From: Entophlyctis helioformis | Lineage: Eukaryota > Chytridiomycota > Chytridiomycetes > Chytridiales > Chytriomycetaceae | Direction of reading: 5' to 3' | Length of the DNA stretch: 64,000 bases | NCBI GenBank assembly: GCA_025526915.1 | Contig: JAHLKH010000005.1 | Location: 186,001-250,000, forward strand | Part shown: positions 3,373-55,851 of the stretch, piece by piece | How the letters are laid out: each line of letters opens with the position of its first letter | Numbering within the stretch: the first letter of the stretch is position 1 | Made by a program: the position numbers and the translations under genes | Notes under the pieces: model-generated | Database searches by the model: none | The model's input: only the letters and a program-made list of their open reading frames with translations | What the model was told of the DNA's origin: nothing

Positions 3373-3420
3373 AGATCTTTACTCAACACTCATCTTCATG
3401 CTCGCGTCTGGCCAGGTTCT
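3373..3420. repeat. Dispersed 47-48 bp repeat, copy 1
   Basis: Nearly identical to 19274-19320: one inserted T and two C/T changes by eye. In this copy it sits just upstream of the coiled-coil gene's ATG, in the gap before the Fanzor 3' end. In the other copy it contains the first codons of the Cdc7-like kinase. It may be a duplicated fragment of that gene's 5' end. Confidence 0.7.
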
Positions 3421-3574
3421 TGGCCCGATATTCATACAATTACCAAGAATTTTGGAATTAAATTCGACCCGAGAGGCGACGAATGCAACCCAGATATCAC
3501 ACGATAGAAGGTTCGAGTCAGCAACGAGCATGCGACGACAGGCGGGCGAGGCACATCCAACGAGATGCTCACCT

Positions 3575-3680
3575 TGCACCATTGTTTGAACAATGATGTG
3601 ATAAAGTGACCCGTTAGGTCGATCGGGAGGTCCCCCGATTCAAAGTTGGTAGACGTAAAAGTCAGAGTGCCAAAGGCTTG
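3575..3680 (-). ncRNA. Candidate guide-RNA (omega-RNA/fRNA) scaffold of the Fanzor
   Basis: Directly 3' of the Fanzor stop codon (minus strand) lie three consecutive inverted repeats: 3622-3639 (arms atcggg/cccgat, 6-nt loop), 3608-3620 (gacc/ggtc, 5-nt loop) and 3580-3595 (cattgtt/aacaatg). TnpB and Fanzor guide RNAs are known to be encoded at and just beyond the 3' end of the nuclease ORF and to fold into several stems ahead of the guide. Position and stems fit; no conserved scaffold sequence was recognised, so the call rests on position and pairing only. The right-edge copy is truncated and cannot confirm it. Confidence 0.35.
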
Positions 3681-6523
3681 TCATGCGAGACAACACATGG
3701 CTGGCAACCAGGCTTGGGCATGACTTGCACGCCGCTGGATGGATCGATGCATTGCCTTGATGTCTGCCAGGTGCTCTGGTGTGGCTGGATTGCTGTCGGC
3801 TTTGGTGTGCGTCAAATAGAGCGGCCGGTGTCCAAAGAGCAGATGCCACAGTGCGACCATTCCGATGTTGGTGGCTCCAAGCACGTCTCGGTGGTAGACG
3901 GTCTTGCATGGTATGCACTCGTAGCGTCGCAGGTTGGTGCGGTTCTTGTCTGGGATCCGCTGCTTGCACTGCGGGCACATCTGGCTGGTCAGGTTCTCGT
4001 TGCAGCGGTAGATCTGTGTGTGTGAGTGTGTCAGTTGGTGCACAGATGGATAGATGGATGGCATGGCATATCCAGACGCACATAGGCATATCCAGACGAC
4101 CGCAGATGCCTGATGAGAAACTTCTCAAACACAGCGTGCCGGCCACCTTGGCCTGTAAAGTCAATGCCAAATGCCCACACAACGGGAATGTCCTTCTCTG
4201 TTGGCTTGTCACAGCGGCCTTGAGATGCAGCAGATGCGCGATATCTAGTGGTCGATCCTGCCAGCTTCATGATGCCCTCAAGAGCGTTTCCGCGATCAGA
4301 CGTGCTGTTGCTGCGCTTGGTGAACCGCTTGGCCTTGACCTTCTGTGGAATGCCATGCCATGCCATGCCATCCAGTGTGATCAGCAGGCGATCAAGCAGC
4401 ATGGCGGCCGTGGCAATGGGCATCCAGAACCAGAGAAAACGTACCCGTGCATTCAGGAATGGCGAGCAGTACGCACGGCAGCGCAGATCCCAAAAGGCTC
4501 TCTCGCCTGCTGAGACGGCTGGATCGGCATGCTTTGCTGTCTTGAATGCAATGGCCGCCTGGATGTCGGCTGCCTTGGCAAGTCGATCAGCAAACCTGGC
4601 ACAAGAGGCAGGCACTGTGAGTTGATCTGGTCAAGAGTGCGCGTGGCAGAGTCATTGCATGCATACCACCGCTGAAAGATGCGCTCAGCATGTGCCATGC
4701 CAGAGGAGAGCACGTAGTTGGACTCGAGCTTATACGAAAAGTCTCTGAGATCAACCAAGATACTGGACGCGCCATACAGGTACCGCTGGCCCCAATCAAT
4801 GCCAACAATCCGCACAAACCGGTAGCCCTTGTTGGTGAACAACTTGTTGGCTTTGAGGATGTTGCGCAGTCGCTGCGAGGCGTAAAAGTTGCGCTGGGCC
4901 TGTCATGCCATGGCATGAGTGAGGAATGTGCAATGCATGTGCACCAATGCGTGAGTTTAGCATGCAAGTGGCTTACAGGATTGGGCGTGTATGGCTTGGC
5001 AGCTGTGGATGGCATGTCAGTCAGTGCTGGTGCCAAGTGTGCGTCATAATGGCACAGCAACTCACATGTGCCATCCATGTGATCATGCCCATCATGCCCA
5101 TCATCATCATCATCAGAATCATCATCATCATCAACCCACGGCTGCTGGCCTGAAGACACCAGATTGGAGCATGCAGAGCAAGGCGGCAGTCAGAATCAAT
5201 GTGTGCACCATCGCATCCAAGCACGCCACATACAGCAAGGTGACTCTGGACGGTCTGTGCGGCCATTGAGAGCGAGTTGAAAGATGCTGTATCCATCCGT
5301 CCTGACGCTGCCTGTCAGGATTGCCTTGGTCCGTTTTGCTCGACGTGCCGCATCAATCGCAGCCTTGTTATGCTCCTCGCGCTCCTTGCCATCCAGACCC
5401 TGCTCGTCAGCCTCTTGCGTCGCCTTGGCTGTGGCCTTGGCAACCGCGTCCATCTCCACAAGAGTACCAACTCTGACCTTGATATGCTCCTCGCGCTCCT
5501 TGCCAACCAGACCCTGCTCGTCAGCCTCTTGCGTCGCCTTGGCTGTGGCCTTGGCAACCGCGTCCATCTCATCTTTGGCTTGTGCAGGTGTCTGGAAGCG
5601 ACCTTTCTCAGGGCGGAGGCCGGGAAGCAGGACGTCGAGAACACAGAGCTCTTGGCTTGCGCTGAATGCGTCTTGGATCTTGCTATTGGGCGTCTCAAGC
5701 TCCAAGTCTTCATCTTTGTAGTCTTGGACAAAAGTGCAGTGTCAGCATCAAATCATACAAGCATGGCATAAACAAGTGCGACCTACTGAGTGCATCCAGA
5801 AGCTCCAGTCGCAATGTCTGCAAAGCATCACTCTGCTTGCCATTCTTGCGCTCATCCATGGTCCCCATTACCGCCCAAAAGAGGGTGGCCTCGGTAATGA
5901 GGATGAACGGGTCGCGGCTCGCCGCCTCAGGGCACAACTTGATTGTTGTGCCAACAGCAAGCTTGCGCAGCTCGTAAAAGATCCTGATCTCGGAGAGTGA
6001 CACATTACTCAAGATCGGCACAAGCACATGCAATGCTTGCGGGATTGTATCAAGACCGCCGTCCTCTGTGGCTGGCAGCGTGCTGGGTGTCGCGGCCGTG
6101 GTGGTGGCCTTGTCCTTCCTGCGCCGTTGCCTCTTGGGTTTGGCGCTGTTGGTGGCTGATGAAGAGGTGGACCGGTCATGCTTGAGACCCGAGGCAGGAG
6201 GGGCAGCGTCTTGAGCAGCGTGTAGTGAGGCGTCCTCAGTGGCCGGTGGTGTGGTTGATGCTGGCCCTTTGCGCCTTTGTTTCTTGCGCGTCAGTGGGCT
6301 TGGTGTGGCGACCTCGGCAGCAGTGCGTTTGGCATCCTTGGTGGCGGCATGCTTGGCATCCTCAGCGATCTTCTTAATGATCCCGATCCACCTGTCAACA
6401 TCCTTGGCAGACGCACCCTGCACCAGGCTGTGAGCTGCATCAACCAACAGCTTGGACTGGTTGGTCATAAAATGGGTGGCCAGCATGCGGCCGACGTCGC
6501 GTGCAAGGTTGTTGTAGATGTCG
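3681..6523 (-). CDS. Fanzor (TnpB-like) RuvC nuclease module, 3' half of an interrupted fusion gene
   Basis: Continues the gene starting at 17541. Exons, 5' to 3': 6518-5787 (rest of exon 12 after the retrotransposon), 5722-5234, 5149-5066, 5002-4977, 4899-4667, 4595-4082 and 4013-3681; all phases agree. After a Lys/Arg- and Ala-rich linker come the Fanzor landmarks: TDGYS at about residue 1532, RuvC-I GIDWGQR (D about 1625), WAFGIDFTGQG, then NENLTSQMCPQC (E about 1845), the second zinc pair CIPC, and RuvC-III YHRDVLGATNI (D about 1882). The Glu in NENLTS matches the relocated catalytic Glu (DEyrTS position) of Fanzors and IS607-type TnpBs. Fanzors are RNA-guided DNA endonucleases carried by eukaryotic transposons. 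No terminal repeats of the carrier element were found. Split from its 5' half by the retrotransposon, so probably not expressed whole. Confidence 0.8.
5370..5570 (-). repeat. Tandem coding duplication in the Fanzor linker
   Basis: Two 87-nt copies (5370-5456 and 5484-5570) lie 114 nt (38 codons) apart, with one visible base difference. Each encodes the same Ala/Glu-rich helix (MDAVAKATAKATQEADEQG...KEREEH). The 114-nt offset keeps the frame. It lies just before the TDGYS motif, so it lengthens a helical linker and does not touch the catalytic core. Confidence 0.8.
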
Positions 6524-6781
6524 TGTTAGATTATCGTCTGTTGGCTTTTCCAACTCTATGTCTCGCGTCTCTGCCTTTCCCTTGCTGTTCTATTCATTTG
6601 CCTGCCTCAGACGCTGTCGCCTGACAGCTCCTCTCCCTCTGTCTGTGTTGCAGGTACTTCTTACAATACATATTCATTTGCCTGCCTCAGACGCTGTCGC
6701 CTGACAGCTCCTCTCCCTCTGTCTGTGTTGCAGACCCGCAGTTCCCTGTGCCTTCGCTGCACTCGAGCAGGAACTCTGACA
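6524..6781 (+). repeat. 5' LTR
   Basis: 258 bp, TGTTAG...TGACA. It holds an internal 80-bp periodicity: a segment of about 63 bp starting at 6591 recurs at 6671. The unit 6654-6733 begins GTACTT, is pyrimidine-rich and ends TTGCAG, so it has the form of an intron. Matches the 3' LTR and the solo LTR at 16509-16766. Confidence 0.95.
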
Positions 6782-6873
6782 AGAACAGCCCTAGAAACAG
6801 CAATCTCGCCGCTCGCGGCACCCGCCTGGCCCTCACATCCCTTCTGACATCCCCCTCGTCGCTCGCGACGCCT

Positions 6874-7221
6874 ACTGGTCTTCCAGCCCCCACACTGCCC
6901 TCGTCGTCCTTCTCGTCGAGCTCAGTGCCTACCGGTTCTCCGGCCCTCTACACCGTTCTCAACGTCCTTCTCGTTGCGCTCGGCGTCCACTGGTCTTCCA
7001 GCCCCCACACTGCCCTCGTCGTCCTTCTCGTCGAGCTCAGTGCCTACCGGTTCTCCGGCCCTCCACACCGTTCTCAACGTCCTTCTCGTTGCGTTTGGTG
7101 TCCACTGGTCCTCCAGTCCCCACACTGCCCTCGTCGTCCTTCTCGTCGAGCTCAGTGCCCACCGGTTCTCCGGCCCTCCACACCGTCCTCAACGTCCTTC
7201 TCGTTGCGCTCGGCGTCCACC
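6874..7221 (+). repeat. 115-bp tandem repeat in the retrotransposon leader
   Basis: About three copies with period 115; the shared actgccctcgtcg starts at 6894, 7009 and 7124. The period is not a multiple of three and the block lies before gag, so it is untranslated leader. Short open frames through it on either strand are artefacts. Confidence 0.85.
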
Positions 7222-7344
7222 ATCTCTCTCTGTTGTCTCGCACCTTCTGATCTACCCAAACAACACGCCAACCAAACGCGACACAACTCCGACCCACTTC
7301 CTTGACATCTCGTTTCTGATTGGTCAATTCGACCAACGCGTCAA

Positions 7345-8694
7345 ATGGACGCTATCTACAGCCTCTTCCCCAGCAGGCCGCCCCAGCCTGCACAGCCGAC
7401 CAACGACGTCCTTGAGCTCCCCGGCGACTCCCCAGCCAAGGACCCCTCAACCGTCCCCACCGACGACAAGAAACCAGAGTCCCTGTTCTCACCTCCTCCT
7501 CCAAGCGACCATCCAAGCAACGACCCCCCAATCTTCTCCTTCGACAAGATGGCGCTCAGGTACCTCGACGAGCCCCCCCAGAGGGCCGATACACAGGCAA
7601 CCAGGGACATCAATATCACCCATGCCAAAAGTAGCGAGACCAAGACCGTCGCCAACCTCCGTGGGGCCCTTGCGCCCGTCCTGGCAGCGTTTGCTAAACA
7701 CACGGACGCTTTCGACTCGGAAGCCCGACACATAGTGGCCTTTATCAACCACCTGATCGACGAGAATACCAAGCTCAAACGTCACCATGACAGCCTCGTA
7801 CATATCGTCAACCAAAACGCCGACCTGACCACTCAGTCCGCGTCCCACTTTGCCAAGCTCTTCAACGGTCTTTCACAATCTCTCACCTACGCGGAAGAGC
7901 TCAACGCTGCCCTGCTGGTCCGTATCGAGGCGCTCGAAGGACGCGGTATCACCGCCCCAGCTTCGGACCCTGACAACCAGAACCGCAGTTTCCAATCCCA
8001 GATCGGCAAGATCCCCTTCTTCTCCGGTACCAACAGCGACAAGAATCCCGACGTTGTCCACACCGATTGGCTTAAGTTTGTCTCACAAGTCAACAATGCA
8101 TTCCGCTGCTACCCCTCAACCACTCTCCTCCCTTCCCAGATTGTCGGCCTTGTCATCAGCCGCCTCGAGGACATAGCCCACATGTGGGCCAACGAGTGGT
8201 TCGATTCGGTACCTCCTGAATCCCAGACATGGACCGCCCTTCGCGACGCTGGCAAGACCCGATTCACCTCCCACTCTGTCCAGTTCAACGCGTCCAACCG
8301 TCTCGAGTTGTGGCACAAGTCTCCATGGACAGCCCCACCATTCACGTCGCTGATTGCCGAGTACCCTACTCTCATGAAGGATGCTGACCACGGGTACAAC
8401 AAGCAGAACGTCCTCTCCTTCGCCAAGCTCTTTGACCCTCTACTCAGGGCCCACATTGTCACAGACTGGAAAAAGTTCGACTCCATGAGGTTACTCGTGG
8501 ATCACACTGCCAAGAAACACACAGAGCTTCGCGAGGCCGGCTACACTGAAGAGGCCCTCCGCGTTCCCAAGCCTGCAAACGCGACCCCTGCTCCCACCCA
8601 ACGGTCCCCATTCCTGTCCGGCAGGTCTCGGCCCCGCCTCTGGCATCGTCGCGTCCCATCAATTCTTACAACGATGTCTCACTCACGGCCATGA
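7345..8694 (+). CDS. gag: Retrotransposon Gag (capsid)
   Basis: 449-residue ORF opening MDAIYSLFPSRPP. It has a Pro-rich N-terminus, a helical central capsid region (for example KIPFFSGTNSDKNPDVVHTD, then a Trp/Phe-rich helical stretch with WLKFV and ADHGYNKQNV) and no zinc knuckle in this frame, although most Ty3/gypsy Gags end with one. Its TGA overlaps the pol ATG in an ATGA, and the pol frame is already open from 8550. Pol is therefore made either by -1 frameshifting within 8550-8694 or by termination-reinitiation. Product: virus-like particle shell packaging the element RNA. Confidence 0.85.
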   Translation: MDAIYSLFPSRPPQPAQPTNDVLELPGDSPAKDPSTVPTDDKKPESLFSPPPPSDHPSNDPPIFSFDKMALRYLDEPPQRADTQATRDINITHAKSSETKTVANLRGALAPVLAAFAKHTDAFDSEARHIVAFINHLIDENTKLKRHHDSLVHIVNQNADLTTQSASHFAKLFNGLSQSLTYAEELNAALLVRIEALEGRGITAPASDPDNQNRSFQSQIGKIPFFSGTNSDKNPDVVHTDWLKFVSQVNNAFRCYPSTTLLPSQIVGLVISRLEDIAHMWANEWFDSVPPESQTWTALRDAGKTRFTSHSVQFNASNRLELWHKSPWTAPPFTSLIAEYPTLMKDADHGYNKQNVLSFAKLFDPLLRAHIVTDWKKFDSMRLLVDHTAKKHTELREAGYTEEALRVPKPANATPAPTQRSPFLSGRSRPRLWHRRVPSILTTMSHSRP

Positions 8695-11600
8695 AGTCGC
8701 TCACTCCCGAGGGTTACGCTTGGATCATCTCCCGCGGCGGTTGCGTTCGCTGCCGCAACCCGTCCCACCAGTCCTCGGACTGCCCCACCTACAAGGCGAC
8801 CGTCATCGATCCAAGGTTCGTCCCTGCTCGTCACTCTCGTCGCACTCCTGTTGCCACTCCCGTGCACCCGACTCATCCCCCACCTGGCATACCTTTAGAG
8901 CCGCAGCCGCCGGTGGTGCCCCCACCCCCGCCGGTAGCTATGCCGCTGCCGCCGGTGGTGCCCCTGCCCCCGCCGGTACCGCCAGCTCCACTACTGCCTG
9001 AGTCCGTGCCAGTGACAACGCCTGCTACTCCAAGCAGTGGAGATGCCGTCGATGATGTGCCTTGCCGGAATGAACCCGTCGAAGACGTTGCCCCCCCATC
9101 TCTCGTCTCGCCTACTGTCTCCCACATTGCGGGCACCTTCATGGGGGCTCCCTGCACCGCTACCATCGATAGCGGCAGCTCGGCCATGATTGTCTCTCGT
9201 CAGTGGGCCAACAGATGGCACCTCACGCCCACACGCATCTCGCCGTTTGATATTGCCTATGCAGGTGGCGAACGCGTGGTGGTGTCCGAGATGCTGCACG
9301 GCCTGTTCTTGTCCGGCGACTACCAGGCCTCTCTGCCTTTCTTCATTGCCGACATCACGTCCGACATCATCATTGGCACTCCCTGGTTTGACAAGGTCAC
9401 AATCAACCTTTGGGACGCTTCGGCCGGCACGCTCCGCTTCACGCCGCGGCACTCCAACTGCCCCGTCACCTGGTCATTGCTATCCAACCCCGTCGATCCG
9501 GCTCCATTCATGGTCAACCTCATCTCCCCTGCGGATCTCCGCAACTCGGACGACATCGTTTTCGCCATTGAGGCCAACGAGCCGGCTGGCGGCTGGACCG
9601 TCGACTCCCTTACCGACCACATTGCCGCGATTTGCGAGCACCACCACTACACGCCAACGGTTTCCTCTGTCTCGGCTCCTGCTTCCAGCACGCCTATTGA
9701 CTTTGATCTGGTCCCCACATGCCACGAGCCGCGCATCAACGCCATTCTGCTGGAGTATGCCGATGTCTTCCAGAAGCCAACCGGCATCCCACCCCATCGC
9801 CCGGAGGACCACGCCATCCCACTCATCCCGGACGCGCGTGTTCCACCTCGCCGCCCTCTGCCTCGTCTCAACAACGCTGAGCTCGAGATCCTCCGCAAGC
9901 AGATCCAGACCTGGTTCGACCTCGGCTACATCCGCCGATCCACGTCTCAGTACGCGGCATCTATGCTGTTTGCTGGCAAGAAGGACGGCACCCTACGCCT
10001 CTGCGTCGACTACCGTGGCCTCAATGCCATCTCGGTCAAGGACAAGACGACCCTGCCCACCATCCCGGCCCTCCGCGACCAGGTGGCTGGCTGCAAGTTC
10101 ATCTCGTCCATCGACCTCCGCGACGGCTTCATGAACATCCGTGTGGCTGACAAGGACGTGCACAAGACCGCGTTCGTGACACGGTACGGGCACTTTGAGT
10201 TTCGCGTCATGCCATACGGCCTTGTCAATGCCCCTGCTACGATGATGGCACTGTCCAACCGCTTGTTCGCCGGCGCTCTTGACGTCTTCATGGGTGTCTA
10301 CGTCGACGACCTGCTCATCTACTCGCACTCCTTGGACGAGCACTGCCAGCATGTCACGCACGTCCTGCAGGTCCTCCGCGACAACCGCATCTTCGCCAAA
10401 GGCTCAAAGTGTTCCTTCCTCGAGCCGTCTGTCGAGTTCTGCGGCCATATGGTCTCGCCCACTGGCTACTCCATCGCTCAGCACAGCATCGACAAAGTGT
10501 TGGAGCACACTACCTGCACCAACCGCGATGGCGTCCTCACCCTCCTGGGCCATGTTGTCTGGCTGAAGGACTTCATCCCGTACTTTGCCGAGCTCGCCCG
10601 ACCGCTGTACGCCTTGACACTCGCCGCCGCACCGTTTGTCTGGGGCGCCCGCGAGCAGCAGGCGGTCCACTATCTGATCCATGCCATCACCACTGCCCCA
10701 GTCCTCCGCTTCTTTGATGCGAAACTGCCAACTCGCGTCTACACGGATGCGTCGGATTATGCAATCGGTGGCTGGATCGCTCAGGAGCATGCCGACGGGT
10801 GGCACCCAGTGGCCTACTACAGTCGCAAGATGGTCCCGGCCGAGGTCAACTACCCAGTCCATGAGCGCGAGCTCCTGGCCCTCGTCGAAGTCTGCCGTGT
10901 GTTCCGTCACTACCTGTCCAGCTGCCAGTTTGTTATCTGCACCGACCACCGTGCCCTCATCTGGCTTCCACGTCAGCCCAACCTGACGCCGCGCCAGGTT
11001 CGCTGGGTCATGGCGCTCCAGGAGTTCCACGCCACCATTGAGTACGTCCCAGGGCCCACCAACGTGCTCGCTGACTTCCTCTCCCGCCACCCTGCCCACC
11101 AGCCTCGTTGCTCGTCCTGCCATGCTGTTTTTGAGCGCAACCTCGACCCACCGGCCACTGCCGCTGCCTCTGTCAGTGCCATCACGTCTGCCGCGTCGCT
11201 CAAGGACACCATCCGCCCTCTGCTCGCTACCGACCCTTACGCTCTGCAGATGCTCGACTGGCGCTCCGGTCTGACCAGCCCTTCCCCTTCCGAAGCCAGG
11301 ATCTTCAAGCACATGGTCCTCTCCGACGGCCTCTGGTACCACTCCGGCCGCCTCTACGTTCCTGACGGCGAGCTACGCACGCGTCTGCTTTCCAACTACC
11401 ACGACAAGCCCTTGGCCGGTCACTTTGGCAGCCTCAACACCGCCAGCCGACTGCTCAACGCATTCTTCTGGCCTTCCCTGCGTGAGGACGCCGCCCAGTT
11501 TGCTACCTCGTGCGAGATCTGCCAGCGCCACTTTGTCGATCGCCGTCGCTCTCAGGGTCTGCTCCATCCTCTGCTGATCCCTGAGGACCGCTTCACAGAC

Positions 11601-12677
11601 GTCTCCTACGACATTGCCTTCCTGCCCATGACTGACTCAGGCTTGGATGCGGTGCTTGTCATTGTTGATCGGCTCACCAAGCTGGTCGCCTTTGCACCTA
11701 CCACCCGCACCGCATCCGCGGCCACTCTGGCTGAGCTCTTCTGCAAGCACTGGGTCTGTGCTGGCATGGGAGTGCCCTCCTCTGTTGTCTCGGACCGCGA
11801 TCCTCGCTTTGCTTCGGCCTTCTGGACGTCGCTCATGGCCACGCTCAACATTGACATGCACCTTGCCACGGCTCGCCATCAGCAGACCGATGGCCAGTCG
11901 GAACGCACCATCCAGACCACCAAGCAAATTCTCTCCAAGTACGCGGACTACTCGGGCAAGAACTGGCCTGACCTCCTGCACACCGTCGCCTTCTCGATCA
12001 ACAGCTCGCCCAATGCGTCGACTGGCTTTGCCCCGTACTACCTGGCTTTTGGTCACAACCCATCCATGCTTCCCTCTATCTCTCCTGCCGATGCTGCCCC
12101 TGCTGTGGCCGATCTCGTTTCACGCGTGGCCGCGGCCTCTGGTGTCGCTACCACTCACCTTGCGGATGCTCAGGAGGAGGCTCGCGTTCAAGCCAACATG
12201 TCACGCCGTGCACCTGCACCTCTCCCCGTCGGTTCTCTTGTCTGGTTGTCCTCGAATGGTCTCACCTGGCCGGCTGATGCTCAGCGTCCTGATCTCGTCC
12301 GTGTTCCCTGGCTCGGTCCCTTCCGCATCACTGCCATTGATGACGATGCTACAAATCTCAACCGTTGTCTGGATCTACCTCCTGCTCTTGCACGCGTGCA
12401 TCCCTGGTTCCATGTCGACCTCCTTCGTCCTTACGTAGACCCAGTCGCTGCTTTCCCGGATCGCCCTGCTCACGCCCGTCCTGCTCCTCTTGAAGTCGCC
12501 CCCGAGGGTAACATCTACGTCATTGAAGCCATCCGCGACGTCAAGGGCAGAGGCAACCGCCGCCGCTGGCTCGTCAAGTGGGAAGGCTACCCTGAGTCCG
12601 ACAACACATGGGAACCGCGCGCGTCATTCACTGGCTCCCTCCAGATGCTCAATGCCTTCGAGGCCCGCCACGGATGA
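8691..12677 (+). CDS. pol: Retrotransposon Pol polyprotein with C-terminal chromodomain
   Basis: 1,328 residues. In order: a CCHC zinc knuckle at residues 18-31 (Cys18, Cys21, His26, Cys31), normally part of Gag; a long Pro-rich spacer; aspartic protease TIDSGSSAM (Asp160); reverse transcriptase with YVDDLL (Asp539/540); RNase H VYTDASDYAIGG; integrase zinc domain (HFGSLNTAS ... CEICQRH) and D,D,E core (VSDRDPRFA, QQTDGQSERT); and a C-terminal chromodomain (IYVIEAIRD ... WLVKWEGYP ... NTWEP). The chromodomain marks the chromovirus clade, in which it steers integration toward modified chromatin. No internal stop is seen. The start at 8691 is the first ATG; a Gag-Pol fusion would enter earlier. 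Confidence 0.93.
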   Translation: MKSLTPEGYAWIISRGGCVRCRNPSHQSSDCPTYKATVIDPRFVPARHSRRTPVATPVHPTHPPPGIPLEPQPPVVPPPPPVAMPLPPVVPLPPPVPPAPLLPESVPVTTPATPSSGDAVDDVPCRNEPVEDVAPPSLVSPTVSHIAGTFMGAPCTATIDSGSSAMIVSRQWANRWHLTPTRISPFDIAYAGGERVVVSEMLHGLFLSGDYQASLPFFIADITSDIIIGTPWFDKVTINLWDASAGTLRFTPRHSNCPVTWSLLSNPVDPAPFMVNLISPADLRNSDDIVFAIEANEPAGGWTVDSLTDHIAAICEHHHYTPTVSSVSAPASSTPIDFDLVPTCHEPRINAILLEYADVFQKPTGIPPHRPEDHAIPLIPDARVPPRRPLPRLNNAELEILRKQIQTWFDLGYIRRSTSQYAASMLFAGKKDGTLRLCVDYRGLNAISVKDKTTLPTIPALRDQVAGCKFISSIDLRDGFMNIRVADKDVHKTAFVTRYGHFEFRVMPYGLVNAPATMMALSNRLFAGALDVFMGVYVDDLLIYSHSLDEHCQHVTHVLQVLRDNRIFAKGSKCSFLEPSVEFCGHMVSPTGYSIAQHSIDKVLEHTTCTNRDGVLTLLGHVVWLKDFIPYFAELARPLYALTLAAAPFVWGAREQQAVHYLIHAITTAPVLRFFDAKLPTRVYTDASDYAIGGWIAQEHADGWHPVAYYSRKMVPAEVNYPVHERELLALVEVCRVFRHYLSSCQFVICTDHRALIWLPRQPNLTPRQVRWVMALQEFHATIEYVPGPTNVLADFLSRHPAHQPRCSSCHAVFERNLDPPATAAASVSAITSAASLKDTIRPLLATDPYALQMLDWRSGLTSPSPSEARIFKHMVLSDGLWYHSGRLYVPDGELRTRLLSNYHDKPLAGHFGSLNTASRLLNAFFWPSLREDAAQFATSCEICQRHFVDRRRSQGLLHPLLIPEDRFTDVSYDIAFLPMTDSGLDAVLVIVDRLTKLVAFAPTTRTASAATLAELFCKHWVCAGMGVPSSVVSDRDPRFASAFWTSLMATLNIDMHLATARHQQTDGQSERTIQTTKQILSKYADYSGKNWPDLLHTVAFSINSSPNASTGFAPYYLAFGHNPSMLPSISPADAAPAVADLVSRVAAASGVATTHLADAQEEARVQANMSRRAPAPLPVGSLVWLSSNGLTWPADAQRPDLVRVPWLGPFRITAIDDDATNLNRCLDLPPALARVHPWFHVDLLRPYVDPVAAFPDRPAHARPAPLEVAPEGNIYVIEAIRDVKGRGNRRRWLVKWEGYPESDNTWEPRASFTGSLQMLNAFEARHG

Positions 12678-12755
12678 TCTGGGGGATGACGAGGCTTAAA
12701 ATTTTTCTCTTCTTCTACCGCCTTGGGTCCTCTTGGCCTCCTCGGCTAGGGGGGG
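12678..12755 (+). other. Retrotransposon 3' untranslated region with polypurine tract
   Basis: Between the pol stop and the 3' LTR. It ends in ggctaggggggg; the G run (12749-12755) abutting the LTR is the plausible plus-strand primer. Nothing else seen. Confidence 0.7.
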
Positions 12756-13013
12756 TGTTAGATTATCGTCTGTTGGCTTTTCCAACTCTATGTCTCGCGT
12801 CTCTGCCTTTCCCTTGCTGTTCTATTCATTTGCCTGCCTCAGACGCTGTCGCCTGACAGCTCCTCTCCCTCTGTCTGTGTTGCAGGTACTTCTTACAATA
12901 CATATTCATTTGCCTGCCTCAGACGCTGTCGCCTGACAGCTCCTCTCCCTCTGTCTGTGTTGCAGACCCGCAGTTCCCTGTGCCTTCGCTGCACTCGAGC
13001 AGGAACTCTGACA
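12756..13013 (+). repeat. 3' LTR
   Basis: 258 bp, no difference from the 5' LTR by eye, followed at 13014-13018 by the second copy of the target duplication tgtcg. Confidence 0.95.
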
Positions 13014-13018
13014 TGTCG

Positions 13019-16000
13019 TGCCTTGCTTTTGCACAAAGGCTGCTATCAAGCCTGTAGGGCAGGACAGCCTCCATAGTGTCCGTGTGCACAGCGTCTGCCG
13101 TCGGTGCACTCTTCTGCATCAAGGCAGACAGATCTGCATTTGCCTGCTCCACAGTTGACTTGAACTCATTGGCCTTGGTTGTCGCTGTCTGCTGCACGCG
13201 TGCTGTCCGTGAGATTGACTTCCGTGTGCCTGCTTTCCACGTCGCTGCTTGCCGTGTGGTTTTCTGTGCTGCAGATGCCTGCTGTGTCGCGTCCACCTGC
13301 CCCTCCTTCCGTCTCCATGTCCGATGTATGATCAGCTGCATCACGGTGACTATCCAGCAGTGGACAGGGTACTTGATCGCATGCGGCTGGACCATCTTAT
13401 CATCCGCCATGATGTATCCAATGTGATATAGCAGCATGTCCAAAGCACCCTCGCCACCAGACGTGCTGCTGGTGAGCGCCGTGAGCAGCTCATTTGCAGT
13501 TGGGACTGCTGGCGGCTGGGCAGCTGGCAATGGTGCACCGGCGCTGCTGGCTGCTGTTGCTGCTGTTGCTGCCACAGTCTGCGATGCATTTGCAAAGGTG
13601 CAGATCTCAAGCACCGTGCCATGCTCGAGAGGCACCAAACTGCCATAGCGAGGGATCTCCGTGTCACTGCTATGTGGTCCTGTGCCATACATCAGCCATG
13701 CATCAATGCGCTCTTGGAGGATGCACCTGCCCGTTGTCTGCATCGTGCCCTTGCCCTCGCCGAGGTCGTCTGGGTTGATGTAGTAGTATGTTTTCACACT
13801 GCCACTAGTGACTTGCATCACGCAGTAGTCAAGTGGCAGTGGTGCGTCTGGGCTGAGCTTGACAAGAACCTCGACTATCGCGCCGATCAACGCGAGGACA
13901 GCACACAAGAGGCCGGCTGTGTAATCGTACACTGTCAGGAGGGCGTCCTTTCTGACCGAAATGGCTGTCTGCTTGGCCAGTGGTGTCTTGGTATGGGTCC
14001 CGAAATACTTTGTATACTCTGGCTTGTTTGACAGCATCTTCTACTCATTTCACGAGTGCACCAGTCAGCCTCACAACACCAAGCATCCAGAGCAACATGG
14101 CAACCAAACCCCATACCGCCAGATCCACAATCATAACACGGCTGTTATGCTGTGCCTCATCCTCATCCTTGCCCTTGCTCTTGCCTTTGCTCTTGCTCTT
14201 GCTCTTGCTCTTGCTCTTGCTCTTGTCCTCATCCTTGTACTTTGGTGCTTTGCGATGATGCTGCACGTTTTTCCGACTGTCTGGTGTTTTGACTTTGAGG
14301 ACCCCATTGACTGTCTGGACTGGCCCTGATGTCACGCAGCAATTGCCTGCAACATCCAGATGTGTCGCCCGTCTCTCATGAAATTCGTGTCTACCAGCAG
14401 AATCCATGTCAGCAAGCACAATCAGGGCTCGCAGCATGCCATCTGCCACTTACGTGCTTGTCGTTGTTGGAGATGGGGCCTTCCGGTGGCGTCGCCCTGA
14501 CTTCTTCTTGTTTTTCTTGATGGTATTCTCGGTCGTAGCCTTCTCAGCTCGCTCGGCATTCTCCTTTGCATGTGCAGCCTCTGTCTCCTCAGAGAATTGG
14601 AATGGCGCCTGCCGTGGTTGGATGCAGCATCAGGCATCCCTTCCTTGTGCACGCAACACAGTCACAATCACCAACGGTGCCCTGTAACCTACCGTCGTAT
14701 TAGTGTCATCAAGTACACCAATGAGAAGTTTCTTGCGGTGTGCTTGTTCAGGGCGATCGTTGTCAGATGACTTGGGCAGTGGTGGAGGAGGACCAGCCTG
14801 TGGAGTAGAATGATCAGCAATCGTGCCAAATCAGTACAGGCACACACTGTCAGTGGAAGATGAGACGCACGGCGGCTTGCTCAATGACTTTCTGCAGCAG
14901 GGCAATGGCCGTTTGACGCTGATTGACGAGCGTGATTGAATTGCCCTTGCTGATACGTCGATTCTTGAGGCCATTCAAGTCATTCAGCAGGTTTGTGGCC
15001 TCATCATGGATAACTGCAAACGTGTCTGCCGGCGCCACTCTTGTGCTGATCCGTCCGCGGTACTCGGTCTTCTTCTTGCCTGTATCTGCAATAGCACATT
15101 CAACAAAAACGGCATTGTGAGTGGATTGCATCAACCATTTCAATGCAAGCAGAATATACTTGGAGTGGCTGTATGCCGGTGGGGGGCATTTTGTGGATGC
15201 ACGATCTCATCCAGCTGCGTCTTCATTCTTGGAGCAACAGTCTGTCCAGGAGCAATAGATCGAGTCAGTCACATTCAAGATCAACAACCGTGTGTGGTGC
15301 AAGAGGAACGGCATGCATCCAAGCCATGCAGCAACTTACAAAAGCATGCCAAATCATCTGATCCGCCTTACTGAGCACCATGTAATCATCTGGCTCAAAG
15401 GACTGCTCGTGCACAATCTGCAGCAGCTGTGCACTAGCCGCCCTGCAGATGGCTGCGAGGATGTCACGGCTAGTGACTCCATCATACTTGCTCGCAAGGA
15501 GATCAACTGTTTGCTCTATGATGGCGTCCAATGCCACGTGGCAGCCATTGACCTCCTTGAATGCCACATCCAGCTGCCTGCTGGCAACAATGCCATTGGC
15601 AAGCTGTTTGACGCGATCGCTCGTTAAGTGAACAGGTGGGACGCCAGTCTTGGCTTGCTGCTGCTGCTGCTGCGCGGTATGGATCAAACAGCAACCAGGC
15701 GATGAGCACCTGCACAATAACGAGATCGCAGCATCAGAACCAGGAAAGCCATGTCAGTTTTCCAGAAACACCACAGATGGCATGCATGCATACTTGGCTC
15801 CAGCCGAGGCTGTCACGTTGACATACATGTGGTTGGCATTGCCTTGTTGAGGCCCTGATCTGTGCAAGGCATGCAATCGTGTCAATGCCAATATGTCCAT
15901 AATATCCTTCAAGAATAGACTTGCCTTGCGACAATCGGGGCTGCAATTGTGCCAACTGGCGCTTTGGGCTCGATTCGGTCGACAAAGACTGAGAATGCGT

Positions 16001-17541
16001 TCTTGAACATTGGTATGAGGCTCTTGTCATGACTCTTGGCCAAGTCCTTGATGTACGCATCCCTGAGGTCATACATGAACACCTTGGCCTCTTCAGGAGT
16101 CTCGAGTTTTCTATAGAGCTCGGCCTCCTTGCCATCCAACTTGGCCGCCTTGCGATCGAACCACGCGTTAATGAACTTGGCAGCGGCCGCGATCCCTGAA
16201 GGCAATACAAGCAGAATCGCGCATGAAGACAACAAATGGCATGTGAGTCATGACAGACAACAAAACAGGCGCAGCAACTCACCATGGCGATTGCGGCCAA
16301 AAAAGTCTGTATGAGAAAACGCTGCGACACCCTGACATGCAACGCGAAAATCCCGAACGCCCAATGCAGACGCAGTTGAGGCCATACCGCCATGGTTATA
16401 TGAGCGAGGCTGGTTAAACCGCCCATGCTGCAAGTGGGTCACAACAACACCACATTGACCAGCACAATGAGCAACCAGATCAGAGCCATTGGAGACAACG
16501 ACAATTGGTGTCAGAGTTCCTGCTCGAGTGCAGCGAAGGCACAGGGAACTGCGGGTCTGCAACACAGACAGAGGGAGAGGAGCTGTCAGGCGACAGCGTC
16601 TGAGGCAGGCAAATGAATATGTATTGTAAGAAGTACCTGCAACACAGACAGAGGGAGAGGAGCTGTCAGGCGACAGCGTCTGAGGCAGGCAAATGAATAG
16701 AACAGCAAGGGAAAGGCAGAGACGCGAGACATAGAGTTGGAAAAGCCAACAGACGATAATCTAACAATTGGCTTGTCACTGTCACAAAATGGAGACCGTG
16801 AGCCATCAGTCATGACAGAATGATCCAAGGCAATGTTACCTTGGCTTGTGAACACGGCGGGCGATGCAACAGTCTGCTTCATAATCACACCAGCATACCG
16901 TGCATCCCTTCTTTTTGCCAACAAGCTCGTTGAGGGCCGCAACAATGTGCTGTTTGTCCGTCTGCGTCAATGTGAAAAATCGGCCAAGAGCATGGGTCTC
17001 CTTTCTGAGTGGCCAACAGCAGAAGATGGTTAGTAAGGCAGCCACACAGTAGAGAGTAGCAAACCTACTTGGTCATCGACCCAATCTGCTTGTATTCTTG
17101 ACGGCGGAACGCATACCGCAGGACCTTAACCGCCGCATGCAGCATCTTGAGTGCGCGGTGTCGGTGCTCGATCTTGATTCCCGCGTCTCCGCGGCGACCG
17201 TCGACGTGGAATTTGATGGTGTGGCCGTCGCCGACCGACGCCATGAACAGCTCGATGGCCGGCTCGATAATGGCCTTCCAGGCATCCTTGGAGTCGGGCA
17301 AGCTGAACGATGCTGAGGCGATGAGCTGCGAGTAGAATACACTTAGCACGTCAATGTGTAACATGCTGCTGACAAAGTTGTCTGTTGCTGTTGCTGTTGC
17401 TGTTGCTGTTGTTGCTGGTCGCTGTTGCTGCAGTGTGCTGTGGACCACGTGCTGCACGACCTGGCTGAGTGCTGTGCCAGCAAGGTAGAGCCAGACGGCA
17501 CAGCCTAGCTTGAGCATTTTCAAGTAGTAGCGGACCGTCAT
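13019..17541 (-). CDS. XPG/FEN1-like nuclease module, 5' half of an interrupted XPG-Fanzor fusion gene
   Basis: ATG at 17541. Exons: 17541-17069, 17004-16840, 16778-16283 (holds the solo LTR), 16195-15921, 15858-15794, 15709-15340, 15241-15160, 15085-14871, 14797-14693, 14608-14454, 14390-14117 and 14040 to the retrotransposon. Every junction keeps phase, and the frame runs on at 6518 into the Fanzor module. Residues 1-290 follow the XPG/FEN1 plan: HIDVLSVFY (D64), FHVDG (D114), CDYEADCCIA (E200, D202), VVVSNGSD (D225) and HTDFFGRNRHGI (D283, the helix-hairpin GIG region). FEN1's D179 position is Gly here, so activity may be reduced. Residues about 300-1390 are helical or low complexity, with Lys-rich, (KS)n and Ala/Thr-rich stretches, and unassigned. 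Rad2/XPG enzymes cut flap and bubble DNA. Intron 1 has a TACTAAC branch site. Two separate genes cannot be excluded without transcripts. Confidence 0.7.
16509..16766 (-). mobile_element. Solo LTR of the same retrotransposon, in an XPG-domain exon
   Basis: 258 bp in the same orientation as the host gene. It matches the 5' and 3' LTRs by eye and is flanked by the 5-bp target duplication attgg (16504-16508 and 16767-16771). It lies in exon 3, between the YEADCC and VVSNGSD motifs. Removing the LTR and one target copy rejoins ...DKPI and VVVSNG... in frame. It formed by LTR-LTR recombination after a full insertion, so the gene was hit twice independently. Confidence 0.95.
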
Positions 17542-17569
17542 GTTGCGTGGTGCTGGTGCGTGTGATGGG

Positions 17570-17639
<70 letters not shown>

Positions 17640-18019
17640 CTGTTTGTTTGCGGGCAAACACGGCGCGTTCCAAAGTGGCGCGCTTTGATCAGATCTGATG
17701 GGCGGAGTTGAACTTTTCATTGCATGAAAACAGAGAGCGAGTGGATAGAGAGCGAGCAGTCTGGCACTCGCAGACCACTGCCCAACAGCCATCAAGGGAG
17801 CAGCGAGCACAGCCAACAGCCAGGTGTTCAAGATGCGGTCATGCGTTGCTGGCACAGTCATTGTTGTGATGCCACCCAGTGCGCAGCTTGACATGCACCA
17901 TGCAGCATCACTCTGCGTGTCATGAGCCGCATTGCAGCGAGCCCCTCTCCGAGTGTCGTCTTCTCAGCCAATGTCCCACTGCATCCAACAATCGTCCTGA
18001 TATGCATCTGCATTGTGAC
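17542..18019. promoter_or_regulatory. Upstream region of the fusion gene: (GT)n tract and palindromes
   Basis: No supported gene. It contains a (GT)n run at 17572-17637, a 16-nt inverted repeat at 17645-17660 (tgtttgc/gcaaaca, 2-nt centre) and a 12-bp palindrome at 17688-17699 (atcagatctgat), with a ggcgcgc cluster between them. His/Thr-repeat ORFs across the GT run are artefacts. This may be the 5' regulatory region of the XPG-Fanzor gene or the edge of its carrier element. Confidence 0.35.
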
Positions 18020-19056
18020 TCAGTGCGATGCAGTTGGTGTTGGCTGACTGGCCAGCTGGTCCATGGACAGGTTGGCCGTTGGCGCACTGCCTGCATCGCC
18101 CCTCTGCTCTGGATTGTCCTTGTCAACAAGCACAGTGCATGCAAGACTTGGATAGTCAGGACCATCGCCATCATCATCGTTGTTGTGGTTGTTGAATGAA
18201 TGGAGAGTGCTTGGTCTGTCTGTCTGGCCACTCCAGTTGCTGCTCAGTGGATCGCATCCAAGATGCCATCGCACCAAGTGCAATGTGGCCAGACACGCCT
18301 GCCAGAACTCGCGTCCTCCTCACCAATCTCGTCTGGATCAGTGTCGCCGAGTGTGCTGCTCGTCGAGTGTGCTGCGACTGTCGAGTTTGGCATCCAAGTT
18401 GGCATGCCAATCCAGCTATCCAGCAAGCAGTTCCTGCGGCCGACTCCAAGGATCGGCCCATTGAGCACGTCTCAGTGGCTGCTCATCGCTGCTGCTGCAT
18501 CCCATGTCGCAGTCGGAAAGCACCAGGCAGCTCAGTCCTGCGATGCCAATGCTCTCGCTGTCCTCTTGAACAACAACCAGATCGCCCTGTTCACGGCCGT
18601 CTTGCCAACGTCTCTTGTTGCTGTTTGGACCCATCAGACATGCACGCAGTCAGTGTCAAGACCACACAGACACGGCCGTCAGACTGCTGTGCCGTCGTCG
18701 TCGATGGGCAATGGAACATGCCTGGACAGACAGCGAGTCAACGCACCTGCTCGCCTGTCTGCAGCCTGCCTTCTGTCCGCCCGCCTTGTTGGGCATGCCT
18801 CTCAGACGGCCACGACCACGCTGCTCTGCTGGATGGCCTGCTGCATGGCCTGCTGCATGCCACCTTGAGCAGTGAGCCACGCAGTCTCCCCTGAAAGGAC
18901 TCAGCCAGCAAGCGAGTGTTGTCCCATATCCGTGCTGTCGCCTGCGTTGCCGTCGTTGTCGTTTGGCTCGTTGTTGTTTGTGTGCAGTTGGGCGGCAAGT
19001 GCAGCAGCGTCTGGATCTGGCATGGCGCGTTGTTGCTGTGCTCGCATCGCGCAGTG
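18020..19056 (-). CDS. Hypothetical protein, low complexity, doubtful gene model
   Basis: No recognised family. Minus-strand segments with protein-like composition lie in series: from an ATG at 19056, MRAQQQRAMPDPDAAALAAQ then an Asn/Asp-rich stretch; after an apparent intron, GGMQQAMQQAIQQSS; an acidic GDTDPDEIGEEDASSG near 18335; and an Asp/Asn-rich C-terminus with ACTVLVDKDNPEQRGD ending at 18020. I could not establish a consistent set of splice phases. It would be transcribed divergently from the kinase across the CCAAT array. It could instead be fragments of more than one gene or chance open frames. Confidence 0.25.
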
Positions 19057-19080
19057 TCAGCACTTCGCAAGGGCTCTCTA

Positions 19081-19248
19081 GATCGACCAATCACAGCGAT
19101 TCCACCAGGATCGACCAATCACAGCGATTCCACCAGGATTGACCAATCAGAACACATCCACCAGGATCGACCAATCAGAGCGATTCCACCAGGATCGACC
19201 AATCACAGCGATTCCACCAGGATCGACCAATCAGGAATATTCCACCAG
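19081..19248. repeat. Six 28-bp tandem repeats, each with a CCAATCA box
   Basis: Six head-to-tail 28-bp units (19081, 19109, 19137, 19165, 19193, 19221). Each opens gatcgaccaatca (one copy gattgaccaatca) and ends ccaccag; units differ mostly in the middle. GACCAATCA matches the NF-Y/HAP complex core (CCAAT). The array lies 50 bp before the kinase ATG and 24 bp from the putative divergent ATG at 19056, so it looks like a multimerised promoter element. Confidence 0.8.
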
Positions 19249-19273
19249 GGGTAATGGTATGAGAACCGGGCCC

Positions 19274-19320
19274 AGATCTTACTCAACACTCATCTTCATG
19301 CTCGCGTCTGGTCAGGTTTT
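19274..19320. repeat. Dispersed 47-48 bp repeat, copy 2 (at the kinase start)
   Basis: Partner of 3373-3420. It includes the kinase ATG at 19298 and codons MLASGQV. The rest of the kinase sequence is not repeated at the other site. Confidence 0.7.
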
Positions 19321-53195: not shown

Positions 53196-55851
53196 TCAGT
53201 ATGCATCCGCTTCAAGCAAAGTTATGATGGATCGTGCCAGCGACAGCCCAACCCCGCGACGTCCCTCGCCAATGGACCGCAGTAGCGTCTCTTTGGATGC
53301 CTGATCCCGTGCTTCTGCGAGTGCCTGAAGCAGTGCGCGCGACGTGGGGTACTTTGCTGCAATCGCCAATGCCTTTTCCGAGCTGACGCCGCGAATGCAC
53401 ATGAGCTGGCGGAGCCATATGTCTCCTAGTGTAAACCCGTTTGACTTGCCGTTGATCCCGCTAAATGCTTCGTATGTGAGCAAAATGGATTGCTTTCCAT
53501 GGCTCTGGCCAGCCGCGCTGCTGTGTGATCGCATCCTCAACTCGTGTTCGCACGCTCGCCGGAGATCGGGCAGGGACTCTTTTGTGACATCTGCAGCCCG
53601 AAGCGCGTACAAGTCTTGTGTCTATCGCAAGTGTGAGTAAGTGCACCAGGTAATACAGTCAGTAACCACGGCCAGTGTGCAATGCCCGTCAGTGTGTGTG
53701 CGGCATGTATGTGAGCACCAGAGCAATCAAAATCTATGCTGCTGCTTCTGATCAGCAAACATACCCGATACATGCTCTGGATGGCGCAGGTCAGATTGTG
53801 CAGGTATGTGACCGTTTCGTTTGGAGAGTATGTGTGCTTGAGGAAAAAGCCATCGAGGATCTGTGTCTGCGTGATGGCCGTCATAATCTTGTCCATGCCA
53901 AATCCTTCGGCATCTGCCGTCGAGACCTCTTCAATGAGGTATATAAGGTTGCTCATGCCGCAACTTCCGAGTCGAAACTGTTCATGCACACGTTCGCACA
54001 TCAGGCAGGACATTGAAAAGAGCATTAATCCAGAGCGTGCCGTCATGCGTTTTGACAAGACATGCAACAAGGATGCCAGCGACAACGCCTGGAAACACAG
54101 GCGCACACACTTTTTGCTCTTTGAAGCGATCGTCTTTGATGCTGGCAACTAAGTCGTCGAGCAGCTTGCGCTCAATGATAAAGTCCAGTGCGATCTCGTC
54201 GTCGTGGTGCAAGCCAAGACCCGACTGTTGATACACGCCACTGGATCCAGGCTTGCGTTTTGCAATCCACATCACATCGCCAAGTGGAAGCGCTCTTGTA
54301 ATCACAGACACTTTCAGCTGCTCAAGCTCCTTTTGGAAAAACTGCCGGTTGGTGCCGCGTACAATCTCTCGAGAGTCCAGAAGGAGATGGATGTCGAATG
54401 TTCCCGCCTGCATGCACACGAGCCTCGCATTCATGTTGGCAGCATTTGCCGGCGCTGTCCGGGATCCAAGATGCGGGGTGTTTGGTTCTCGCGGCATGTG
54501 TGGAGCAGCACCGGGACAAGCAGGCTGTCCATTATCACCCGGCTGTGATGGCACTCTCGATCCAGTGGGCAATGCCACTGCTGGGATCGTTCGGGGAATG
54601 AACGTTGTACGCTGTGAAGACCCCTGTGGTTCCAACAGGAAAGCGCCTAGTGCACCAGACAAAGCGTCGCGTGTGGCAGACCCGCCAGCCAAGGCTTGAC
54701 CGCCATGTGCCTGCATGCCCATGCCTGGAATTCCGTATCCAGAGTACTCATCCAGCTCGCTGTATGCGTCGTCCGAAGTCTCGGAAGCCAGCTCCAGGCT
54801 GGCAGTGTTGGGATGGCTGGCAGCCGAGGCTTGAAGAGTCCGTGCAAGCTCTGCAAGTTGGCGCGCGAGATCGCGGCCCTCTTCGGTCAGCGTGAAGCGG
54901 TGGGGCATGCCGGTGCGGAAGACAAGGTCTTTGGCCACGAGCGTAGACATGGAGCTCCAGGCCGTGTGGTTGGCACCCTTGTTGGCATTGGGGATGGTAA
55001 AAGACGAATCCGAATATGCCTCGCCTGCCGTTATGATTTCGTGTTTGGACATGAAGTTGGACACTGGCGCGTGGAGGTGAAGGGCCAGCAATATAGCGTA
55101 CGCGCCGGATCTGTATCTTGGAACGTAGACACGCTCAGCAGCCGACTTGGCGTATGCTCGTTTTGGTGGTTGCCGTGGTGATGCATGCGCGACTGAAGCA
55201 GCAGGTGCACTGTGCGCAGACGGGCGTGATGCACAGACGCTGCGGTCCAAGTCTTGGTCCACAGCGGCAGCTTGCGACTGTGTCTGCGGCCTCTGCCAGT
55301 CTGCTGCTGCTTGTGGGTTGCTCTGGATGTGCTTTTGCAGACGACGCTCGAGGCGCTCGGCGATCTTGGGGCCAACGTACTTGACTTTGGATGCCTCGGT
55401 GCCGGACCAAAGGCGCTGTGGGTGCTGCCGCAGCTGTCCATTGCCTACCACAGCAGCATGAGCCACGCCGGCAGCTGACGGCATTGGAAGGCAGCGGGCG
55501 GCACTCGTCCGGACAGGACGGCACTTGCCTTCTTGAACGTGAACGGCAGCTTCGACGCAGCCCCGTTCACAAGCGCATCGGCCCTTGCTGCCTCGTACCC
55601 TGTCCAGGCACCGAACAGGCACCGCACAGGCACTGCACGATCAGACTCGTTGTAGGCAGGTGCACGGCAGGCAGGCGGACAGGCAGGCAGGCGGACAGGC
55701 AGGCAGGGCAGGCGGACAGGGCAGGCGGAGCGCACGCACATTCAGACAGCCACTGCACAAACAGCGGATTGGCCGGCGTCTCTGATCCAGCACGCCCAAT
55801 CTTGGCCGCGGCCTCTGGCGCTGCTGCTCCTGCTGCGGCCACTGCCGCCAT
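53196..55851 (-). CDS. MUS81: Structure-specific endonuclease MUS81
   Basis: Catalytic subunit of the MUS81-EME1 nuclease that resolves stalled forks and recombination joints. From ATG 55851: NPLFVQWLSE and, after an intron with short tandem repeats, the N-terminal HhH region (KVKYVGPKIAERLERRL) and a winged-helix segment (YRSGAYAILLALHLH ... HRFTLTEEGRDLA). The XPF-type nuclease core then shows LLLDSREI, LGDVMWIAKRK and IIERKLLDDLVASI (ERKxxxD intact), then ILDGFFLKHT. A C-terminal HhH pair (LRQLMCIRGVSSEKALAIAA) closes it. Domain order and catalytic residues match human MUS81. Confidence 0.92.

Follow-up and report, generated by a model that had tools for sequence, protein, structure and literature searches.

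The window analysed here is a 64,000-nucleotide stretch of the genome of the chytrid Entophlyctis helioformis (contig JAHLKH010000005.1, positions 186,001 to 250,000 of the forward strand; positions below count from its first letter). It contains a transposon with terminal inverted repeats (TIRs), whose gene very probably joins an XPG-like nuclease to a Fanzor RNA-guided nuclease. This single-gene fusion was proposed in a first-pass annotation of the window, and it is upheld because an undisturbed paralogue has an intact reading frame, the introns are shared by 20 copies, the ratio of nonsynonymous to synonymous substitution rates (dN/dS) is below 1, and elements of 7.2 kb leave little spare room. 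The best explanation, to which we assign a probability of roughly 0.8, is that the single gene of a TIR transposon encodes a protein of about 1,900 amino acids, comprising an N-terminal 5'-nuclease domain of the FEN/EXO1/XPG type, a middle region and a C-terminal Fanzor1, and that the element ends in a conserved, RNA-like 3' segment.

The gene is most clearly read in the undisturbed paralogue L009 (G000:C138), in which a single frame of 5,697 nucleotides runs across 18 exons with only a terminal stop and encodes 1,898 amino acids. This length assumes an intron 15 of 71 nucleotides. An intron 15 of 20 nucleotides, giving 1,915 amino acids, was set aside in favor of this same-frame GT-AG intron, which matches the other introns in size, although the choice is not proven. 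The window gene lies on the minus strand, from an ATG at 17541 to a TGA at 3681. All 17 junctions are found there in order (16 GT-AG introns and one GC-AG intron), using junction strings set by hand and allowing one mismatch, so the 18 minus-strand exons with agreeing splices of the first-pass annotation stand. Its estimate of about 1,949 codons becomes about 1,936 by simple arithmetic if exons 3 and 12 are given their L009 lengths.

Intron places and similar intron sizes are common to 20 copies of six subfamilies. GT/GC-AG boundaries occur at the mapped sites of 16 to 17 of the 17 introns in five close copies, and of 15 to 16 in nine more distant ones. At the mapped positions GT/AG is missing from some introns in groups g5 and g6, the most distant ones (mostly introns 4, 5 and 7), which is probably alignment slippage. 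Comparative gene finding with substitution scores was too noisy at the Fanzor end, and the junctions were set by hand and checked across copies. A deposited gene model made by others (P0001) has identical first five junctions; relative to copy L014 it starts further upstream and has an exon 1 shorter by 12 residues. In eight pairs of copies, dN/dS is below 1 in all blocks: 0.22-0.48 in exons 1-4, 0.16-0.61 in exons 5-11, 0.31-0.54 in exon 12, 0.34-0.86 in exons 13-14 and 0.42-0.73 in exons 15-18. Separately, when subfamilies are compared (L009-L022, introns 1-11), introns have diverged less than the synonymous sites of neighboring exons, with Jukes-Cantor intron distances of mostly about 0.2-0.37 and a dS of mostly 0.5-1.1.

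The two ends of the gene also travel together. A search of the genome (29.57 Mb in 482 contigs) gave at least 151 matches to the N-terminal exon, with some exons giving two pieces, and at least 150 to the Fanzor zinc ribbon, scored among 205 candidates. For 69 of the 150 Fanzor matches listed, a listed N-terminal exon lies no more than 20 kb upstream on the same strand, and for 55 of these 69 the distance is 5.5-7.5 kb. The corresponding controls gave four with such an exon up to 20 kb downstream on the same strand, and four with one on the opposite strand within 10 kb. The pairing is far beyond chance.

The exons of the window copy and the sequences inserted into them are as follows, with the basis of each assignment in brackets (LTR, long terminal repeat).

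17069..17541, minus strand: exon 1, with the start and the first half of the XPG/FEN-like domain, including the Asp of HIDVLS and the Asp of FHVDG (splice junctions, homology)
16840..17004, minus strand: exon 2, with the YEAD motif of the XPG-I region (splice junctions)
16283..16778, minus strand: exon 3, with SN(G/D)SD and HTDFFG, split by a solo LTR (splice junctions, paralogue comparison)
16509-16766: solo LTR inside exon 3 (5-bp target duplication read by eye)
15925..16195, minus strand: exon 4, with the H2TH-like GIAAAAKF region and the end of the 5'-nuclease domain (hhalign, splice junctions)
14117..15859, minus strand: exons 5-11 (15859-15794, 15709-15340, 15241-15160, 15085-14871, 14797-14693, 14608-14454, 14390-14117), the middle region, with no known domain (Pfam, splice junctions, the dN/dS given above)
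5787..14040, minus strand: exon 12, about 586 amino acids in L009, split by a Ty3/Gypsy element (splice junctions, paralogue comparison)
6524..13013, plus strand: Ty3/Gypsy LTR retrotransposon with a chromodomain inside exon 12, foreign to the gene (domains and 5-bp target duplication read by eye)
4977..5722, minus strand: exons 13-14 (5722-5234, 5149-4977), with the Fanzor WED-type TDG motif, RTDGYS (splice junctions, motif alignment)
3681..4899, minus strand: exons 15-18 (4899-4667, 4595-4445, 4342-4082, 4013-3681), the Fanzor RuvC core and C4 zinc ribbon with GIDWGQR, NENLTSQMCPQC and HRDVLGATNI (PF07282; active site in 20/20 copies)

Neither the solo LTR nor the Ty3/Gypsy element is present in the five nearest paralogues. 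As read from these comparisons, the window copy is a broken member of a large family, and its paralogues were therefore used to read the gene instead. The motifs quoted in the first-pass annotation are present, except that SNGSD departs from the NDSD or GDSD of the family, in which 20/20 other copies have the Asp, so that one metal-binding Asp is missing from the window copy. The two LTR insertions, the very large size of the family and the mosaic copies described below go beyond that annotation.

Residues 1 to about 370 are supported as a 5'-nuclease domain by both sequence and structure prediction. Seven active-site carboxylates, which correspond to those of human FEN1, are kept, six of them in 20/20 copies and one in 19/20, and they persist in subfamilies whose identity to L009 is 33-68%. 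The second Glu of the YEAD motif is replaced by Asp, as it also is in the EXO1 of the E. helioformis genome. Profile-profile comparison with hhalign scores 38.7, compared with a shuffle maximum of 25.0. The score is 36.8 after removal of one faulty row, and 32.1 with all 20 unedited copies, for which the shuffle maximum is 23.4. Two AlphaFold models are consistent with a PIN/FEN fold, and a fold search of the PDB places EXO1 first for both, with about 16-20% identity in the alignments. The database relatives found for this domain are six hypothetical proteins, all from E. helioformis (E <= 0.1, 7,999 candidates scored), and no XPG-like family was found for the N-terminus in NCBIfam and PHROGs. 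FEN1 loci numbered two, both archaeal, in the genome contigs searched, and none was found in the viral contigs searched. At locus L031 (G000:C2), the host FEN1 gene is directly followed by the 3' end of a Fanzor on the other strand.

The C-terminus of the protein is, by its motifs, a Fanzor1, as the first-pass annotation had it, and RNA-guided cleavage is predicted. PF07282 matches L009 above the cut-off (E 3.4e-10). The published Fanzor motif is D-X(125-275)-[TS][TS]-X-X-C4 zinc finger-X(5-50)-RD (PMC3627910). It is found in L009 as D1605, TS at 1797, a C4 ribbon and RD at 1830-1831. The RuvC D/E/D residues are present in 20/20 copies, the domain also has the TNB zinc ribbon, and the C-terminus matches transposase families in PHROGs. 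The TDG motif, which belongs to the WED domain of Fanzor1 (PMC10711439), is TDGYS at 1490 in L009; it is present in 16/20 copies and missing from the reading taken for the other four. Pfam gives nothing convincing for the region between the two domains.

The fused gene fills a TIR transposon of 7-10 kb that is present in well over a hundred copies. In the window, the element and its ends are these.

3422..19272, minus strand: whole transposon copy, TIR to TIR, 15.85 kb (homology stops at about 19273 in upstream loci and at 3422 downstream)
19250..19272, minus strand: 5' TIR, GGCCCGGTTCTCATACCATTACC (genome matches compared with a reversed-pattern control)
19081..19233, no strand: subterminal tandem repeat with a 28-bp unit in 5.5 copies (repeat search)
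3422..3641, minus strand: conserved 3' end including the 3' TIR (3422-3444), a candidate omega/re-RNA scaffold (29/29 copies, hairpins)

The window element owes its 15.85 kb to the two insertions. The transposon ends are imperfect inverted repeats of about 23 bp, GGCCCGGTTCTCATACCATTACC and GGCCCGATATTCATACAATTACC when read from the outside in. At up to three mismatches, the 5' repeat has 86 genome matches, two of which are 3' ends picked up on the opposite strand. There are 170 matches to the 3' repeat, and the reversed-pattern control gives zero in each case. Possibly, the 28-bp subterminal repeats are transposase-binding sites. Among the matches listed (80 of the 86 5' repeats and 100 of the 170 3' repeats), 41 units shorter than 25 kb could be paired. 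Of these, 27 measure 7.2-9.8 kb, nine 13.9-15.9 kb and three less than 2.2 kb, and the others 11.6 and 20.6 kb. At least 35 contain the N-terminal exon, at least 30 the zinc ribbon and at least 25 both, again among the matches listed. The nine units of 13.9-15.9 kb include the window copy with its Ty3/Gypsy element, so insertion into the transposon may be frequent. Two units of about 1 kb (G000:C35:164492-165480 and C436:7860-8911) have both TIRs and the zinc ribbon and lack the N-terminal exon; they recall the Spizellomyces ghost elements (PMC10432273).

Target-site duplications (TSDs) were read by eye at six insertions. Exact 8-bp duplications flank L009 (CAAACCGG) and L010 (AGAAAAAA), seven of eight positions agree in L020, a duplication is probable in L014, whose 5' end is degenerate, and none was found by eye at L024. 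The window copy is flanked by a 46-bp imperfect direct repeat (19274-19318 and 3373-3418, with one mismatch and one gap) rather than by an 8-bp TSD; this is either a target duplication of unusual length or a repeat that predates the insertion. The window element splits a protein kinase-like frame (plus strand, from about 19283, by eye). About 50 bp past the canonical 3' terminus are common to L022, L023, L024 and L025, so that g5 and one g3 recombinant may have a second type of terminus in common.

The last 188-225 nucleotides of the element are kept in 29/29 copies (28 loci and the window), with a mean column identity of 84%. One hairpin, ATCGGG/CCCGAT, shows one compensatory change. A second hairpin has at least six variants of its tip, and folding is retained in every one (z -1.25 to -3.90). 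Because the guide-RNA scaffolds of Fanzor1 include the transposon end at the 3' position (PMC10711439), this conserved segment is a candidate scaffold, not a proven one.

Copies of the element are mosaics. Subfamilies with 44-85% identity to one another in exons 1-4 reach 91-97% for the introns and 78-92% for the exons of the segment running from intron 14 to intron 17, which about equals the level within subfamilies. In trees, six of six subfamilies are monophyletic for the XPG block, two of six for exon 12 and one of six for the Fanzor block. L022 groups with g5 in the Fanzor block (support 0.999), and L026 with g4 in exon 12 (support 1.0). The tree thus changes inside the frame, from exons 5-8 to exon 12 and again to the Fanzor block, and the two halves have recombined repeatedly within it. 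The 5' flank is likewise similar across g1-g4.

Several observations weigh against the single-gene reading and its parts. All of its evidence comes from sequence and predicted structures, and L009 is the only one of the 20 copies read that is free of stops in every exon, although some in-frame stops in exon 14 may stem from the exon limits chosen. The first-pass annotation had set XPG-profile matches to residues 1-300 as the test for its XPG/FEN1-like N-terminus. No Pfam XPG model (XPG_N, XPG_I, XPG_I_2) reaches its cut-off there (best E 1.7e-4), and the likeness stands on the carboxylates, the hhalign scores and the predicted fold instead. The only recurring model is XPG_I_2, in five of eight members, with 19 bits against a cut-off of 24.2 where bits are shown. 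Genome scans with XPG_I (four matches listed) and XPG_I_2 (three listed) recover no member of the fusion family, and a sequence-profile search of the PDB finds no XPG relative for the domain. With the six nr proteins alone, the hhalign score drops to 26.6, close to the shuffle maxima that the other alignments gave. In the comparison with the score of 38.7, hhalign places the EAD motif two residues off. Both AlphaFold models have low confidence (pLDDT 46 and 52), which weakens the EXO1 fold matches. Pfam finds no transposase domain in L009, nor in the L018 and L028 middle regions, the genome not having been searched for a TIR-matching transposase. The whole 3' segment of the window has a z of -1.6, with 16 of 200 shuffles folding equally well, and in the 3' consensus two of 47 pairs have changed in a compensatory way, with a covariation term of 0. 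Finally, mosaics can arise through ordinary recombination among repeats.

In the mechanism proposed for the fusion protein, the Fanzor half would load RNA, and the flanking sequence just past the element's 3' end would supply the guide. The loaded Fanzor would cut the empty site, either after the element exits or on the other chromosome, and the tethered EXO1-like half would trim 5' ends or flaps at the break. Trimming might then steer repair toward recombination with another copy, so that the element is copied back. Such a cycle of cutting and resection would keep the element in place and homogenize its ends. Because recombination would occur near a break at the 3' end, just that end should be homogenized, and this prediction corresponds to the observed pattern of near-identical Fanzor ends and introns on diverged N-terminal halves. 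The cooperative function is put forward tentatively, as something short of probable. Somewhat unlikely is the fuller picture of a one-protein machine whose guided breaks lead to recombination-driven copying of a selfish element and shuffle modules among more than 100 copies. The fused nucleases could also, as the first-pass annotation suggested, process breaks or help mobilization.

It is very improbable that an XPG-like nuclease and a Fanzor are two adjacent genes of one transposon that only the splice model joins. The gene structure is read from sequence, conservation between subfamilies is poor in the middle region, and no known domain occurs there, as two genes would allow; however, the 1,898-residue frame of L009 is uninterrupted, intron positions through the middle are the same in 20 copies, the middle exons have a dN/dS below 1, and the trees change within the frame. 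The N-terminal domain might instead be a binding scaffold rather than an enzyme, as are the XPG proteins of the Asteroid/Mkt1 type. XPG_I_2, the Pfam model of such proteins, is the recurring match, and the window copy lacks one Asp. Nevertheless, the persistence of the carboxylates in divergent subfamilies and the dN/dS of 0.22-0.48 in exons 1-4 make a scaffold unlikely.

Two further possibilities concern what the fusion does. The element's own mobilization enzyme, acting in excision or end processing, could be the XPG domain, possibly together with the middle region; the Fanzor would target or preserve the element, which would then be autonomous. The small space for a second gene in 7.2-kb elements, the mostly 8-bp TSDs where ends are readable, and the lack of a separate transposase among the domains found all suit this idea. 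It is rather improbable, in that we know of no transposase with a FEN/XPG fold. Also, transposases encoded elsewhere may serve Fanzors (PMC10432273). Alternately, the homogenized Fanzor ends could have arisen through ordinary ectopic recombination among dispersed repeats, with the fusion being a passenger domain that has no cooperative function. Exchange outside the Fanzor end (exon 12 joins L026 with g4) and the similar 5' flanks of g1-g4 fit such recombination, whereas both active sites are intact in nearly all copies and the homogenized zone adjoins the candidate guide-RNA end. This alternative is a real possibility, though not one we would call probable.

Elsewhere in the window, an open reading frame (ORF) at 53982-55622 on the minus strand resembles MUS81/ERCC4-type nucleases by eye, a likeness confined to a motif; it is a host gene.

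The combination of this nuclease with Fanzor appears to be absent from the databases and papers searched, and the family appears to have no relative outside E. helioformis at the sensitivity of the searches. No relative was found with the full-length protein (8,000 candidates scored), or with the Fanzor core when proteins of about 1,044-3,321 amino acids were searched (870 candidates); spliced eukaryotic proteins may be scarce in the database, making both tests weak. The first-pass annotation knew of no described fusion of the two families, and neither Fanzor together with XPG nor Fanzor together with Entophlyctis was found in the open-licence literature searched. The word XPG is absent from the available portions of three Fanzor papers (PMC3627910, PMC10432273, PMC10711439). 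One of them describes the biological role of Fanzor1 proteins as unknown (PMC10432273). A Fanzor joined to a nuclease that processes 5' ends directly suggests the hypothesis that guided cutting leads on to resection and copying, and a single protein with its point mutants would be enough to test it. If true, nature would offer a precedent for linking a programmable nuclease with an enzyme that steers repair. The mosaic copies provide a record of recombination at element ends.

Like EXO1, FEN1 and XPG (the Rad2 family), the N-terminal domain has seven carboxylates in the same order, a predicted EXO1-like fold and an H2TH-like GIxxAxK stretch. Unlike them, it shares only about 16-20% identity with EXO1, has Asp for the second Glu, and is fused to an RNA-guided nuclease inside a transposon. 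It resembles the Asteroid/Mkt1 type in its sole recurring, sub-threshold Pfam model; in those proteins the active site is partly lost, whereas in the fusion family it is complete. The element as a whole is like SPu-1/SpuFz1 of Spizellomyces punctatus and other Fanzor1 elements in being a chytrid TIR transposon with one gene (PMC3627910, PMC10432273, PMC10711439). It also shares the RuvC D/E/D residues, C4 zinc ribbon and TDG motif (PMC3627910, PMC10711439), the lack of a transposase found within its ends, and deletion derivatives that keep the ends (PMC3627910, PMC10432273). Its counterpart of their 3' RNA scaffold is a candidate from sequence (PMC10711439). Fanzor1 proteins range up to about 800 residues (PMC10711439), and SPu-1 is about 2.1 kb long, with a single 633-residue ORF and a putative TA target duplication (PMC3627910). 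In contrast, the E. helioformis element spans 7-10 kb, with 18 exons, a predicted protein of about 1,900 amino acids, an 8-bp duplication and an N-terminal 5'-nuclease domain.

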